Virus record (IMG/VR): IMGVR_UViG_3300042465_002645
Span: 1 to 24,399 of that record
Origin: a virus
Length of the DNA stretch: 24,399 bases
Direction: 5' to 3' (one strand)
In this document: positions 14,658-22,475 of the stretch, piece after piece
Numbering within the stretch: the stretch's first letter is position 1
Layout of the letters: the number at the start of each line of letters is the position of its first letter
Notes under the pieces: model-generated
The model's database searches: none
Seen by the model: the letters and a program-made list of their open reading frames with translations, nothing else
Told to the model about the DNA's origin: nothing
Position numbers and translations under genes: made by a program

Positions 14658-14833
14658 GCTGGGGTGTTTTCGGGCTTTTGAGCCGTTTTCTGGTCTCGTT
14701 GAGGGTCAAGGTGCTTGAGAAGCAGTTCGAGGCTTAAAGAGCCTGTTTTCTCAAGTCGTTCAATTTCGGTCAAAACGCAGTCAACCCCTGCGTTAAACCC
14801 TTTGATGTAGTCGCTCATTTTGGTCTCGCTCAT
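14654..14833 (-). CDS. Small hypothetical protein, 59 aa
   Basis: 59 residues (MSETKMSDYIKGFNAGVDCV...), mostly one charged helix with a leucine-rich part (TGSLSLELLLKHLDPQRDQ). ATG at 14833 preferred because it overlaps the upstream stop as ATGA; an in-frame ATG lies 15 bases further in. The stop overlaps the zinc-ribbon start in the same way. The 'DYIKGFNAG' start is common in short phage proteins of unknown function. Confidence 0.6.
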   Translation of the reverse strand: MSETKMSDYIKGFNAGVDCVLTEIERLEKTGSLSLELLLKHLDPQRDQKTAQKPENTPA

Positions 14834-15018
14834 ACTGGGTTGTTGGTTAAGATTTTTTTCAGGTTGACCATCAACTGCTCAGCCTCGACGCGAGTCAACG
14901 GGACGCTCATCATTGATCGACGACCTTGCAGGCACAGCCATACGCCCTCGTCGTATTGGTCGGCACTGACGCGAATTTCTGCCTCAGTGTTGATTGATGT
15001 TTCGATTTCGTTTGTCAT
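14830..15018 (-). CDS. Small hypothetical protein, 62 aa
   Basis: 62 residues, not recognised. It has a polar N-terminus (MTNEIETSINTEAEIRVSAD), a short hydrophobic strand (GVWLCLQGRRSMMSVPL) and an end helix (VEAEQLMVNLKKIL). The layout suggests a small alpha/beta fold. It is the first of four genes carrying the hairpin-TTTACTTGAAAG leader immediately upstream, with GAAAGAA as the ribosome site. It overlaps the next gene as ATGA. Confidence 0.62.
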   Translation of the reverse strand: MTNEIETSINTEAEIRVSADQYDEGVWLCLQGRRSMMSVPLTRVEAEQLMVNLKKILTNNPV

Positions 15019-15051
15019 GATAATTCTTTCAAGTAAAGCCCCCGAGGGGGC
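15019..15051 (-). promoter_or_regulatory. Hairpin leader, copy 1
   Basis: On the minus strand a six-base stem GCCCCC/GGGGGC with a minimal TC loop (15038-15051) is followed directly by TTTACTTGAAAG and, 19 bases after the hairpin, the ATG. It may end transcription from the gene above (short T run) and also form the 5' leader of the gene below. Confidence 0.65.
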
Positions 15052-15056
15052 GGGTT

Positions 15057-15524
15057 TTAGGCGTCGTCGAGCATGAGGTTGCTACGAGAGATAGCGTCGT
15101 ATTTAGCGATGCGTTGTCCCTCTTCGTCAAGCTCGTTGATTTGGTTGCGAATGGCGTTTAAGCGAAGTCCAGCAGAGGCGCAAGGCTCATAGCTGAGAAC
15201 TACGCCTTCGTTGTAGGCAAAGTGATACTCATTCTTCAGGGCGCGATAGGCGGCTTCCGCCTTATCCTCGAGGGCGCACAGCTCGTCCATGGTGAGCTTT
15301 TGCAAAGGGTGGCTGACCTGATTGGCAACGCGCAAGATGCCAGTGTGACCAGTGCCCTTCAAGAACTTGACCATGTCAGCAAGCAAAGCCTGCTTGGAGT
15401 CAGCGTAGAACTCAATAGGAGTCTCCTTCAACTCAACAACATTGGTGTTGATGAAGATGCCTTCGATTTCACCAGTGAAACAACGGTCGTCTTGGTAGAC
15501 GTAAGCTTTGTAGATTTTTGCCAT
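15057..15524 (-). CDS. Hypothetical protein, 155 aa
   Basis: 155 residues from the ATG at 15524 (MAKIYKAYVYQDDRCFTGEI), which has GAAGGA eight bases upstream; a longer frame would begin with TTG. The N-terminal half is beta-rich, and the middle is helical with LTMDELCALEDKAEAAYRAL. The end is a coiled-coil-like stretch (AIRNQINELDEEGQRIAKYD). No recognised family. It has its own predicted promoter upstream (TTGATA-16-TACAAT) and a hairpin leader of the shared type, so expression may be independent of the gene above. Confidence 0.7.
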   Translation of the reverse strand: MAKIYKAYVYQDDRCFTGEIEGIFINTNVVELKETPIEFYADSKQALLADMVKFLKGTGHTGILRVANQVSHPLQKLTMDELCALEDKAEAAYRALKNEYHFAYNEGVVLSYEPCASAGLRLNAIRNQINELDEEGQRIAKYDAISRSNLMLDDA

Positions 15525-15557
15525 TTTGATTTCCTTCAAGTAACCGCCTTATTGGCG
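15525..15557 (-). promoter_or_regulatory. Hairpin leader, copy 2
   Basis: Minus strand: stem CGCC/GGCG with loop AATAA (15545-15557), then GTTACTTGAAGGA and the ATG 20 bases after the hairpin. GAAGGA is the ribosome site. The loop and flanks closely match copy 4 (loop AACAA, then GTTACATGAA). Confidence 0.65.
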
Positions 15558-15564
15558 TGAATGA

Positions 15565-15610
15565 ATTGTAACATGAAATTAAAACGTATCAACCATAGGG
15601 ACTTTCCCTA
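15565..15610 (-). promoter_or_regulatory. Promoter with two palindromes
   Basis: Minus strand: -35 TTGATA (15592-15587), 16-base spacer, -10 TACAAT (15570-15565). The spacer and -10 hold TTTTAAT-TTCAT-GTTAC (15584-15568), a relaxed copy of the operator-like palindrome. Just upstream of the -35 is a perfect 15-base palindrome TAGGGA-CTT-TCCCTA (15596-15610), a possible second regulator site. It would drive the 155-residue gene. Confidence 0.65.
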
Positions 15611-15611
15611 A

Positions 15612-15926
15612 TCAATCTGCCCGAGATCCAGCGTATGCCGAGATGCCGTGCTTGCGAAGCACTTCTGCGAATGCGAAGGCGCCAGCTTCTTTGACGTCCA
15701 TAGACTGTGTGGGGTTGCCAGCAGGGTTCCAGATGCACCAGCCTTTTTGCCAGTGCTTGCGACCCACGTTGTTTTTCTTGCACCAGCCCACGAAGGGGAT
15801 GCGTGCGCTTGAAATGTCAACCCAAGCAAAGCCACAGTACATTGGCTCGCCGTGTGCTTCCATGTAGGCGGACTCAGCGGCTTTAGCGGCGTTGAGGGCT
15901 TCGGTATAGATGTTGTCGTAGTTCAT
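15612..15926 (-). CDS. Conserved phage protein, 104 aa
   Basis: 104 residues. The pattern IYTEALNAAKAAESAYMEAH, CGFAWVDIS, FVGWCKKNN, WCIWNPAGNPTQSMDVKEAG and a close in ...SAYAGSRAD is typical of a conserved but uncharacterised phage protein. It appears to be a compact alpha/beta domain rich in tryptophan, with cysteines at three places. No catalytic motif is obvious. It carries hairpin leader copy 3 and GAAAGA as ribosome site. The stop lies just beside the TAGGGA palindrome of the next promoter. Confidence 0.72.
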   Translation of the reverse strand: MNYDNIYTEALNAAKAAESAYMEAHGEPMYCGFAWVDISSARIPFVGWCKKNNVGRKHWQKGWCIWNPAGNPTQSMDVKEAGAFAFAEVLRKHGISAYAGSRAD

Positions 15927-15957
15927 GATGGTCTTTCAAGTAAAAGCCCCGAAGGGC
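15927..15957 (-). promoter_or_regulatory. Hairpin leader / terminator, copy 3
   Basis: Minus strand: GCCC-TTCG-GGGC (15946-15957), a stem closed by a UUCG tetraloop, followed by TTTTACTTGAAAG and the ATG 19 bases after the stem. The TTTT run makes it a plausible weak intrinsic terminator for the 97-residue gene as well as a leader. Confidence 0.65.
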
Positions 15958-15962
15958 AGGGA

Positions 15963-16256
15963 TTAGTTTGACAGTGCCTCTGTAGTGGCTGACAAAATGT
16001 CGTAAGTGACCTTGGTGTGCTTAGCGATCAGCTCAGTAGGAGCGTTCAGCTCTTTGGCAACGGCAGACCATGCTGTCGTTTTCTTTTCTGGTGTGTGCTT
16101 GATGGTGGTCACGTACATAGTGCCAGCGTATGAACCTTTGCCCAAAATTTTGAGTTGGTTCTTGAGGTCTTCTGCCTGCTCTTGCAGAGCGGCGATTTGG
16201 TCTTCGATCAAACCGAGTTGGTCAACGATCTTGAGAGCGGTAGTGGTAGTAGTCAT
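15963..16256 (-). CDS. Hypothetical phage protein, 97 aa
   Basis: 97 residues. The N-terminal half is a coiled coil (IVDQLGLIEDQIAALQEQAE then LKNQLKIL). After GKGSYAGTMYVTTIKHTPEK comes a helical part containing AVAKELNAPTELIAKHTKVT. The layout (helical hairpin, a beta strand pair, then 'IAKHT') resembles a family of short phage proteins of unknown function that has this arrangement. It is the first gene after the promoter at 16.3 kb, with AAAGGAA before the ATG and hairpin leader copy 4, so it is probably transcribed at a high level when that promoter is free. Confidence 0.7.
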   Translation of the reverse strand: MTTTTTALKIVDQLGLIEDQIAALQEQAEDLKNQLKILGKGSYAGTMYVTTIKHTPEKKTTAWSAVAKELNAPTELIAKHTKVTYDILSATTEALSN

Positions 16257-16293
16257 TTCTAATTTCCTTTTTCATGTAACCTGCTTGTTGCAG
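16257..16293 (-). promoter_or_regulatory. Hairpin leader, copy 4
   Basis: Minus strand: stem CTGC/GCAG with loop AACAA (16281-16293), then GTTACATGAAAAAGGAA and the ATG 24 bases after the hairpin. Same design as copy 2. Here there is no gene immediately upstream, so a terminator role does not explain it. Confidence 0.6.
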
Positions 16294-16300
16294 TGATTGC

Positions 16301-16366
16301 ATCTTAACACGGAGTTAAAGCGCTTGTGAAGTCTTTTATAAATATTTTTATTAGGACAAACCCTAA
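16301..16366 (-). promoter_or_regulatory. Promoter with two palindromes
   Basis: Minus strand: -35 TTCACA (16330-16325), 18-base spacer, -10 TAAGAT (16306-16301). A perfect palindrome TTAAC-ACGGA-GTTAA (16304-16318) overlaps the -10. Further upstream is TTAGG-ACAAAC-CCTAA (16351-16366), similar to the TAGGGA palindrome at the 15.6 kb promoter. The sequence between (16331-16350) is very AT-rich and could act as an UP element. It would drive the 97-residue gene and those below. Confidence 0.65.
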
Positions 16367-16635
16367 CCTTTCATCAAAAGGGCAACGACCCTCTCGATGG
16401 TGACGTTCAGGGCGTCCTGCTCGTCCATCTTCATCACCGACCACATGCGTCTCTGCCCGTGCCAGCCATTGAAGCTCCCTTGGTGGCAGTCCTTGCACAG
16501 AGCCACGCAGGTGTACTGCCTATGCTGTTTGACGTGGTGGGCATCACTCGGTGGGGATGCATCACACACAGAGCACGGGAGCTCTTTGACAAGCCCCACG
16601 TAAGCGCGTTCTTTTGCTGTGAGAGTGTTATTCAT
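16363..16635 (-). CDS. Small HNH-like zinc protein, 90 aa
   Basis: 90 residues from the ATG at 16635; two more codons would need a TTG. Metal-binding pattern: C21-x2-C24 (LPCSVCDASPP), then HH at 33-34 (DAHHVKQHRQYTC), C47-x2-C50-H51 (ALCKDCHQG) and NGWHGQRRMW. This is the layout of HNH-type nucleases, close to short phage recombination-region nucleases such as Ref- or NinG-like proteins; I cannot tell which. The end is helical (DEQDALNVTIERVVALLMKG). It overlaps the glycosyltransferase gene by eight bases. Nuclease activity is inferred from the motif only. Confidence 0.65.
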   Translation of the reverse strand: MNNTLTAKERAYVGLVKELPCSVCDASPPSDAHHVKQHRQYTCVALCKDCHQGSFNGWHGQRRMWSVMKMDEQDALNVTIERVVALLMKG

Positions 16636-17491
16636 TGACAAGCCTCATGCCGTATTCGTTTGTGCCTTCGGGGATCACCAGCCCGTCACGTTTGACAAGC
16701 CTGTTCTTTTTGAATCTGTTGTAGTCCACAAAATGATGCCAACGGTCAAACTTCCACACCACCCTTGCGACGTCTGGGTGCAACTCCTCGAGCATCTGTG
16801 ACTTGGGCATAGTGCCCTCGGTTGCGTAGAAGGCTTCAGTGTTGCCGCCACCCATTGATTGGGTTCTAACCTTGTTTTGCAAAAATGCATTGAACTGCAC
16901 GGTGCACATGCCGTCTTTAAGTGCGCGCAGGGATAGGTGTGTGTCTTCGTTGTAGCGCCCCTCCCAGCGGTGTTTAAGCGCGTTTTCAATCAGCAGGCAG
17001 GAGTAGATGCGGGTGTTCAAAACAAACGGCGGAGGCGTGTCTTTACGCTTGGCGAACATGGAGTAGTTGAATCCAGCAATAGGCACGTTGGTGTAGCGCT
17101 CGACAAAGTCCTCAGCCGCACGGAATATTGCTGGCGTTTCGCACTTGATCTTCATGTTGCGGTTAAGGCGGTGAAAGCCATCGATGTTGTCGTCTAGCAC
17201 CCAGTGTCGGGTGGCGCCCAAAGAGAGGGAGTGATCCCATGCGAAGTTACGAGCGGCGCCGGGGCCTCTGCTCTTCACATCCCCCAGCTCATCACATGTC
17301 ACGTAGTTGTCGAGATAGCTCTGCGGCAACACCACCAACCTATGCACGTCTACGCTACTTGCGTAGTTATCGAATTCCTGCTCCTCGACCACCACGCGGT
17401 ACTCGGCGCCCATACGGTCAAGCGCATCTGCGGTGAGCGTCTTTCCCCAGCGCCCTTTAGAAACAATGTAGATCGGATGCTTAGGCTTCAT
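16628..17491 (-). CDS. TET-associated-type glycosyltransferase (TAGT)
   Basis: 287 residues from the ATG at 17491 (an ATG two codons earlier is also possible; there is no clear Shine-Dalgarno site). The sequence has the hallmarks of the TET-associated glycosyltransferase family: PIYIVSKGRWG at the N-terminus, GPGAARNFAWDHS, HWVLDDNIDGF with a DDN metal/nucleotide-sugar site at about 100-102, NTRIYSCLLIENA, GRYNEDTHLSLRALKDG with a second acidic site (NED, about 181-183), FNAFLQNK, GGGNTEAFY and RWHHFVDY. Family members are proposed to add sugar to hydroxymethylated bases in phage DNA. No TET/JBP oxygenase or hydroxymethylase is in the window, so the substrate is unknown. It overlaps the 88-residue partner gene by 11 bases, suggesting a common task. 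Confidence 0.78.
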   Translation of the reverse strand: MKPKHPIYIVSKGRWGKTLTADALDRMGAEYRVVVEEQEFDNYASSVDVHRLVVLPQSYLDNYVTCDELGDVKSRGPGAARNFAWDHSLSLGATRHWVLDDNIDGFHRLNRNMKIKCETPAIFRAAEDFVERYTNVPIAGFNYSMFAKRKDTPPPFVLNTRIYSCLLIENALKHRWEGRYNEDTHLSLRALKDGMCTVQFNAFLQNKVRTQSMGGGNTEAFYATEGTMPKSQMLEELHPDVARVVWKFDRWHHFVDYNRFKKNRLVKRDGLVIPEGTNEYGMRLVNE

Positions 17492-21220: not shown

Positions 21221-21427
21221 TTACACGAAAAACAAATCTGGACGCAAGTCTTTTCTTGTGACCAAACCTTGTGTTGCTTTTTCAATCTTAACCGCCAACG
21301 CGGCTGATGCTGTTCTACGCTCGTGAATGAGCAGTGACATCCATGTCAGGCTGATGCCTAGATACTCTGCCATCTCACCACGTGCGCCCAACGGCTCCGT
21401 CTCAAAATACTCTTGCAATGTCATCAT
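21221..21427 (-). CDS. Cro/YdaS-type repressor
   Basis: 68 residues from the ATG at 21427, which has AAGGA six bases upstream; the frame is open to an ATG at 21454, but that lies within the predicted promoter. The sequence matches the Cro/YdaS helix-turn-helix family: LQEYFETEPLGARGEMAEYL, recognition helix around GISLTWMSLLIHERRTAS, AALAVKIEKATQGLVTRKDL and a close in RPDLF. Such small regulators control divergent phage promoters. It faces the rightward operon across 136 bases, and operator-like palindromes lie in both promoters, so it probably represses itself and the early operon. A single such repressor with no CI-type partner is visible. Confidence 0.8.
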   Translation of the reverse strand: MMTLQEYFETEPLGARGEMAEYLGISLTWMSLLIHERRTASAALAVKIEKATQGLVTRKDLRPDLFFV

Positions 21428-21445: not shown

Positions 21446-21468
21446 AGTATACATTAACTTTGAATTAA
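21446..21468 (-). promoter_or_regulatory. Leftward promoter of the repressor with operator
   Basis: Minus strand: a good -10 TATACT (21451-21446) with only a poor -35 (TTTCTT at 17 bases). The palindrome TTAAC-TTTGA-ATTAA (21454-21468) occupies the spacer directly upstream of the -10, as expected of an autoregulated repressor gene. Confidence 0.6.
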
Positions 21469-21498
21469 AAGAAACCCTTGAATTTAGTCAAGAATGTA

Positions 21499-21528
21499 TT
21501 GCAAGGCTTTTTAATATCGTGTTAAGAT
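21499..21528 (+). promoter_or_regulatory. Rightward early promoter with operator
   Basis: -35 TTGCAA (21499-21504), 18-base spacer, -10 TAAGAT (21523-21528). The palindrome TTAAT-ATCGT-GTTAA (21511-21525) overlaps the -10. The last 12 bases of spacer and -10 resemble those of the leftward promoter at 16.3 kb (CGTGTTAAGAT in both). Confidence 0.7.
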
Positions 21529-21563
21529 TCGCTCACGCCGATACGGCGGTTAAGGAGAATCAA

Positions 21564-21783: not shown

Positions 21784-22104
21784 ATGACCAGAGAAGACAT
21801 TATTTGTATGGCGCAAGAGGCAGGATTGATTGGCAAGCCAATCTTTACAGAAGGTTTAGAACATTTTGCCAACCTTGTTGCTTCTGCTGAACGTAGTGCA
21901 TGTATTGATTTACTGATGGGTTTGCATGAAGCCCAAAGCAACAACGGCGCCCATGACTACTACCACTTTGCTTCAAACGCAATAAAAGAGTTAAGGGGCA
22001 AAACCATCACCATTAAATCTAAACAATTTAAATGCACTGGTTGTCAAGGCAAATGGCATAACTCAGAAGATGCCAAGCATCATTCATGTAAGGATTTCCA
22101 ATGA
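21784..22104 (+). CDS. Hypothetical protein with C-terminal zinc finger, 106 aa
   Basis: 106 residues. The N-terminal ~70 residues are helical and begin MTREDIICMAQEAGLIGKPI, a start common in small phage proteins. The end is a probable zinc finger: FKCTGCQGKWHNSEDAKHHS, then C, giving C-x2-C...H...HH-x-C. Begins one base after the preceding stop and overlaps the next gene as ATGA. DNA or RNA binding is possible but not shown. Confidence 0.65.
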   Translation: MTREDIICMAQEAGLIGKPIFTEGLEHFANLVASAERSACIDLLMGLHEAQSNNGAHDYYHFASNAIKELRGKTITIKSKQFKCTGCQGKWHNSEDAKHHSCKDFQ

Positions 22105-22475
22105 ACAAAGAACAATTACTTGACCAATTTGCAATTGAGGCAATGAAGGCAATTCAACGTCAAGAGGGTATGGTTGCTGTGCATAACGTAGCACTACGCG
22201 CTTATGGAATTGCAGAAAAAATGTTGGAATGCAGGCAAACGGTTTTAGACAATTGGGCATTGAAGGATGCAATTGTTGAAGATGGCATTGAAAAACTTGA
22301 ATTGACTGTACGGTCTGAGCACTGTTTAAAAGCTGAGGGCATTTACACCATAACGCAACTGCTCACATACTCTGATATTGGCTTGCTTAGGGTACCTAAT
22401 TTGGGACGAAAAAGCCTCAAAGAAATTATGGAGCAATTAGATGCACGTGGATTGAAGTTAAGGGGGCAAGCATGA
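22101..22475 (+). CDS. Protein with RNA polymerase alpha C-terminal domain, 124 aa
   Basis: 124 residues. The last ~62 residues closely match the C-terminal domain of bacterial RNA polymerase alpha subunit: IEKLELTVRSEHCLKAEGIY, LLRVPNLGRKSLKEI and LDARGLKL. Counterparts of the DNA-contacting residues R265, C269, G296, K298, S299 and E302 (E. coli numbering) are present (here R71, C75, G102, K104, S105, E108). N268 is H74, and D259 is K65. The N-terminal 60 residues are helical and replace the assembly domain of alpha, so it cannot build core enzyme. It may guide host polymerase to phage promoters or compete with host alpha for UP elements or activators. AAGGA precedes the ATG. Confidence 0.82.
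   Translation: MNKEQLLDQFAIEAMKAIQRQEGMVAVHNVALRAYGIAEKMLECRQTVLDNWALKDAIVEDGIEKLELTVRSEHCLKAEGIYTITQLLTYSDIGLLRVPNLGRKSLKEIMEQLDARGLKLRGQA

Follow-up and report, generated by a model that had tools for sequence, protein, structure and literature searches.

Stem-loops that stabilise an mRNA from its 5' end are familiar from ompA and papA, in which structure is conserved over sequence and the ribosome site is left free. Lambda nut and HK022 put are RNA hairpins that lie near the start of early operons and are absent from the repressor transcript; put consists of two stem-loops. The leader of T7 gene 10 (phi10) begins a phage transcript with a hairpin and runs through a U/A-rich stretch into the ribosome site; it is made from a T7 RNA polymerase promoter, its hairpin is larger than the one described here, and it has no repressor dyad. 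At the level of DNA, multi-operator phage repressor regulons repeat one palindrome at a divergent switch and at several early promoters, beside a Cro-like gene. The requirement of RppH and RNase E for a single-stranded 5' end explains stabilisation by 5' structures (reviewed in PMC3997798), and in the beta-proteobacterium Cupriavidus necator, expression rose 1.5-3 fold, and the mRNA level also increased, when a T7 gene-10 stem-loop was present at the 5' end (PMC6146998).

The promoter-leader cassette described here was found in a 24,399-nucleotide stretch of viral DNA (positions 1 to 24,399 of IMG/VR record IMGVR_UViG_3300042465_002645, referred to as the window). Whereas ompA and papA are single host genes, one hairpin cassette is here placed on one promoter type in front of many genes in many phages, and its loop is conserved. 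In contrast with nut and put, which lie deeper in the transcript, the cassette has its one small stem at +2, and it has no boxA. Unlike in the multi-operator regulons, a 5' hairpin accompanies most promoters of this type, the one before the regulator gene excepted; that the regulator binds them is itself a prediction. The resemblance to phi10 extends to the U/A-rich stretch (TTTAACTTTAAG, compare GTTTACTTGAAG), and is a likeness of layout.

The gene cluster and its two kinds of leader

A preliminary description had drawn attention to four short genes at 14834-16293, each preceded by a hairpin, the motif TTAC(T/A)TGAA and a ribosome site. Re-reading the window bears out all four hairpins, the motif and the hairpin-to-ATG distances of 19, 20, 19 and 24 nt for genes A, B, C and D, whose leaders all lie on the minus strand. 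TTACWTGAA occurs five times in the window (0.43 expected; shuffle maximum 3), four of the five copies being the leaders of these genes, and it forms a set of exactly four, on one strand and within a span of ~2 kb, in five close relatives (scanned lengths 49,977, 24,192, 25,492, 49,075 and 34,282 bases), the 34,282-base relative having one extra copy elsewhere on the opposite strand. The enrichment in the window and the recurrence of the same set of four in relatives establish that the leader observation is not due to chance.

The four leaders do not, however, make up the one set that had been proposed. The shared module, which is limited to TTACTTGAA plus the ribosome site, stands; the leaders themselves are of two kinds, linked to a promoter at B and D, and placed behind a stop codon without a promoter at A and C. 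The sequence would divide the cluster into two operons, promoter-hairpin-D-hairpin-C and promoter-hairpin-B-hairpin-A. The statement that nothing similar precedes other genes of the window fails, since a fifth hairpin, CGCC-GATAC-GGCG, lies with the same promoter on the plus strand at 21510-21548, before the start codon TTG 21564 (ATG in some relatives) of a rightward operon. Also overlooked had been the promoter, the anchoring of the hairpin to the probable transcription start, and the dyad that the promoters share. The features are the following, with promoters, transcription starts and 5'-terminal positions as predicted:

16301-16319, minus: dyad and extended -10 promoter of gene D, TTTAACTCCGTGTTAAGAT (covariance model match 16267-16308, E 7.8e-8)
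16281-16293, minus: 5'-terminal hairpin CTGC-AACAA-GCAG of the gene D leader (RNA fold -5.0 kcal/mol; putative transcription start A at 16294)
16271-16279, minus: TTACATGAA, clade-specific upstream part of the ribosome site of gene D
15963-16256, minus: gene D, 97 aa, ATG 16256, first gene of operon D-C
15946-15957, minus: second-type hairpin GCCC-UUCG-GGGC, 5 nt after the D stop codon
15935-15943, minus: TTACTTGAA before gene C
15612-15926, minus: gene C, 104 aa, phrog_22149
15565-15583, minus: dyad and extended -10 promoter of gene B, TTTAATTTCATGTTACAAT (covariance model match 15531-15572, E 4.1e-8)
15545-15557, minus: 5'-terminal hairpin CGCC-AATAA-GGCG of the gene B leader (putative transcription start A at 15558)
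15535-15543, minus: TTACTTGAA before gene B
15057-15524, minus: gene B, 155 aa, ATG 15524, first gene of operon B-A
15038-15051, minus: second-type hairpin GCCCCCTCGGGGGC, 5 nt after the B stop codon
15028-15036, minus: TTACTTGAA before gene A
14830-15018, minus: gene A, 62 aa
21510-21528, plus: dyad and extended -10 promoter of the rightward operon, TTTAATATCGTGTTAAGAT
21536-21548, plus: 5'-terminal hairpin CGCC-GATAC-GGCG of the rightward operon (covariance model match 21521-21562, E 4.1e-6; putative start A at 21535)
21451-21469, minus: dyad TTTAATTCAAAGTTAATGT before the regulator gene, with no hairpin behind it
21221-21427, minus: YdaS/Cro-like DNA-binding regulator gene (Pfam YdaS_toxin 2.7e-12; phrog_35 transcriptional repressor 1.5e-9)

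Matches to gene B in L009-L015 cover only about the first 70-78 of its 155 residues; the remainder may be a separate or fused domain.

TTACTTGAA was considered as the core of the element and rejected: an open scan for TTTACTTGAARGAN6-7ATG returned mostly unrelated places without hairpins, and outside the close clade few matches have one (L123, L125, L147, L150). Because the scan is mostly hairpin-free and distant cassette members have GTTTATTAGGAG, GTTAACTGGAG or GTTAAGGAG in its place, TTACTTGAA is a clade-specific ribosome-site motif.

The A/C hairpins begin 5 nt behind the point where the preceding gene stops. Their sequences are near-constant in close relatives and are replaced further away by another hairpin (GGGGGGCTACGGCTCCCC in L017). 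They may protect the 3' end of the upstream message or mark a processing point; more speculatively, cleavage upstream of the hairpin would provide the downstream gene with a 5' end of similar make-up, a hairpin followed by a ribosome site. The A/C type should be kept out of any covariance model shared with the B/D type. The leader of gene A is of the promoter type in some relatives, of the post-stop type in others, and without a hairpin in a third group, so the movement of the cassette is not tied to that of the gene.

Architecture and base pairing of the promoter-leader cassette

The cassette of genes B and D and of the rightward operon has a constant order: a dyad TYTAAY-N5-GTTAnAnT that contains the extended -10, a spacer of 6-8 nt with CA at its end, a hairpin of 4 bp (CNNC-RAYnn(n)-GNNG), GTT, the ribosome site and the start codon. 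At B and D, 7 nt ending in CA separate promoter and stem. The rightward copy, identified by pattern and by covariance model, lacks TTACTTGAA and is followed by the first gene of its operon. Within the window the stem varies, being CTGC at D and CGCC at B and in the rightward copy. Long or near-complete records mostly hold two to four copies each, usually as two or three clustered copies and one on the opposite strand.

The spacing of these elements is fixed. In a first set of loci the stem occupies the same place in 38 of 46 distinct dyad sites (shuffled downstream sequence: mean 2.0, maximum 6). The offset of the stem from the -10, taken over 203 distinct dyad/-10 sites, is 7 nt in 130, 8 nt in 18 and 6 nt in 9, any other offset up to 59 accounting for at most 5 each; CA directly precedes the stem in 127 of 142. 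The usual distance from -10 to start would place +1 on the A just before the stem, and it is with this A that the transcript probably begins. From the hairpin to the start codon there are 13-27 nt, mostly 18-21, and the ribosome site is left uncovered. Forty sequence families are represented among the 149 ORFs downstream, so the cassette is spread over unrelated genes. Its loop is conserved at positions 1-3 (R in 148, A in 146 and Y in 143 of 153), the closing C-G pair is near-invariant, GTT is conserved behind the stem, and a GTTA(C)/GTTT stretch is kept between hairpin and ribosome site. The R-A-Y loop of all promoter-type copies and the GTT that follows the stem at once are complementary; a pseudoknot between the two was considered and dismissed, being impossible within one molecule without linker nucleotides. 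In one phage (L018, TTTAATTTGGTGTTATACT site and a second site) the hairpins in this position are larger, namely CTGAC...GTCAG and TCGAC...GTCGA, and covary with each other.

Base pairing was assessed by scanning for GTTANANTNNNNYCACNNCRAYN{2,3}GNNGGTT, a pattern in which the outer stem bases are fixed and two inner positions are free. Among the matches listed, the inner positions are both complementary in 73 of 75 distinct readable matches in viral contigs (~1/16 expected by chance). A scan of bacterial and archaeal genomes, 257 billion bases in all, gives 9 matches to this pattern, 1 of them paired, and this lone paired match is a phage contig (L374) with a related terminase, binned in a Burkholderiales MAG. 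An alignment of 24 distinct copies scores 0.608 for covariation, where shuffled alignments score 0.124 +/- 0.040 (0 of 500 as high) and slid alignments 0.123 at most. In a wider anchored set, pair 1 is almost always C-G and pairs 2-4 show compensated changes: G-C, U-A and C-G at pair 2; C-G, G-C, U-A and A-U, with three G.U, at pair 3; C-G, U-A and A-U at pair 4. As judged from these sequences, the shape of the B/D-type hairpin is clearly under selection. Selection on structure, which had been proposed for all four leaders, is thus strongly supported for this type; for the A/C type covariation cannot be shown, its hairpins being near-constant or replaced. The three loci with a G.U pair favour RNA over DNA as the level at which pairing matters.

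The regulator and the switch region

The rightward copy of the cassette sits opposite the YdaS/Cro-like regulator gene, whose own upstream dyad, TTTAATTCAAAGTTAATGT, has no hairpin either in the window or in those relatives that were read. The switch region is arranged alike in close relatives, with a rightward stem of CGCC/GGCG, CGTC/GACG or CGCT/AGCG. Among annotated phages there is one clear match to the full cassette, MW202545, an uncultured genome from Manatee Spring, in which a regulator homologue of 61.5% identity is likewise divergent from the hairpin promoter. The window and its close relatives have the same dyad at the promoter of the regulator, at the rightward promoter and at those of the cluster; its presence at all of them suggests that the cassette promoters may be switched together by the YdaS/Cro-like protein, which position and the retained dyad single out as the candidate to bind it. 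A recurring gene (..EEFHYF.. in several; L271, L280, L302, L318, L321, L325, and L261 near 5672 on the minus strand) has the dyad and promoter and no 5' hairpin. With the regulator's promoter and this one gene family both carrying the dyad without a hairpin, the promoter apparently functions in the absence of the hairpin. A small protein encoded at 22101-22472 (plus strand of the window), which has the C-terminal domain of bacterial RNA polymerase alpha (Pfam RNA_pol_A_CTD 1.3e-18), is possibly a transcription regulator at promoters lacking a -35.

Possible functions of the hairpin

The best explanation, and one on which we consider the balance to be even, is that a 5'-terminal, mRNA-protecting hairpin is built into repressor-controlled promoters. 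Operator and promoter would be one functional unit, the dyad TYTAAY-N5-GTTARA overlapping the extended -10, and the transcript would start with one unpaired A and enter the small hairpin immediately. Once the regulator had left the dyad, messages from several early operons would begin with a structured 5' end; RppH and then RNase E, host enzymes that are assumed to be present and that need a single-stranded 5' end, would be hindered by the hairpin, and the ribosome site behind it would remain open, for a greater yield of protein from short-lived early transcripts. The single free nucleotide before the stem and the open ribosome site behind it fit such a role. Of three functions suggested in the preliminary description, an RNA stability element fits best. 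Counting against it are the stem of just 4 bp, at about -5 kcal/mol, and the dyads without a hairpin at the regulator's promoter and in the EEFHYF gene family. A translational regulator, another of the three, is unlikely as a gene-specific mechanism and was rejected as a general role: about 40 protein families lie downstream, the ribosome site is free, and gene A occurs with either leader or none. The part of that suggestion that persists is a possible RNA-binding partner common to all copies.

Protection does not require conservation of the R-A-Y loop, of the closing C-G or of the GTT behind the stem, all of which is seen, and this makes a binding partner a serious alternative. The hairpin might be an identity tag for a dedicated phage or host RNA-binding protein, either as an antitermination signal in the first nucleotides of early operons, like lambda nut and HK022 put, or as a mark that spares the message from a phage-triggered nuclease. 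We entertain this tentatively: the inner stem pairs vary freely around the conserved positions, leftward and rightward early operons have the hairpin and the regulator's promoter lacks it, and these operons contain terminator-like hairpins in their interior; yet the U-tracts of those internal hairpins are not conserved, no arginine-rich N-like protein was recognised among the hairpin-led genes looked at, and the tag itself is anchored at the predicted transcription start and hardly ever found elsewhere in the leader. A boxA upstream of boxB, as in lambda-type nut, has no room here, a single transcribed nucleotide preceding the stem if the start is the A, and the leaders have one 4-bp stem-loop against the two adjacent ones of put. 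A recognition element in the strict sense, with a phage or host protein that binds the RAY-loop hairpin in the opening 14 nt of each early phage message and so modifies RNA polymerase or marks the message as phage-owned, is a proposition that we regard as less likely than not; if true, it would be a compact 5' tag operating across unrelated genes and phages.

The strict -10 spacing, the CA conserved at the start and the GTTA(C)/GTTT stretch kept up to the ribosome site would also be accommodated by an action in initiation or early elongation (promoter escape, anti-pausing, prevention of R-loops or slippage), or by the keeping of the ribosome site unstructured, mRNA life not being the target. 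Effects on initiation do not as a rule depend on pairing from +2 to +14, yet no property is better conserved than pairing, and we think this reading improbable. It is very hard to see the stem as a DNA palindrome, a second operator for a dimeric regulator with no RNA structure. It does adjoin a clear DNA dyad, and the AAY...GTT in and behind the loop resembles the inner half-sites TAAY...GTTA; but a single genome may contain different stems (CTGC beside CGCC in the window, and beside CGTC in L006), loops of 5-7 nt change the spacing, and G.U pairs occur. Intrinsic terminators merged with ribosome sites, the remaining proposal of the preliminary description, are just as far from likely. For B and D they are excluded: these hairpins, like the rightward one, have 4-bp stems lying directly behind a promoter and continue into GTTACTTG or GTTAAGG, with no U-tract. 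The A and C hairpins do score as terminator-like, but weakly so as an argument, since the U-run shrinks to ATTTACTT or TTACTT, a mere TT, in relatives that retain the hairpin, and terminator-like sites overall (11 against 8.7 by chance) are not above chance.

Whatever the function, the carriers of the cassette are a family of uncultured, mostly freshwater phages, in which it precedes many unrelated early genes; their host probably belongs to Burkholderiales. The window also encodes (16628-17491, minus) a TET-associated glycosyltransferase (PF20691, 3.2e-47), which suggests glycosylated modified bases in the phage DNA. The window has no Rfam match at gathering score (best weak match E 0.54), and the open-licence papers searched hold no prior description of the cassette. 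Protection of mRNA by a 5' hairpin is a known principle; its hard-wiring, with a conserved loop, to a class of phage promoter is, as far as can be tested, new. On the evidence of evolution alone, a structure at the 5' end of mRNA has become fixed to a promoter in a phage group, and the two have been copied together to places before some 40 gene families. The long-argued idea that blocking the 5' end benefits phage mRNA during infection thereby becomes testable with very small mutations, and the compact promoter-leader part is of possible use in beta-proteobacteria.
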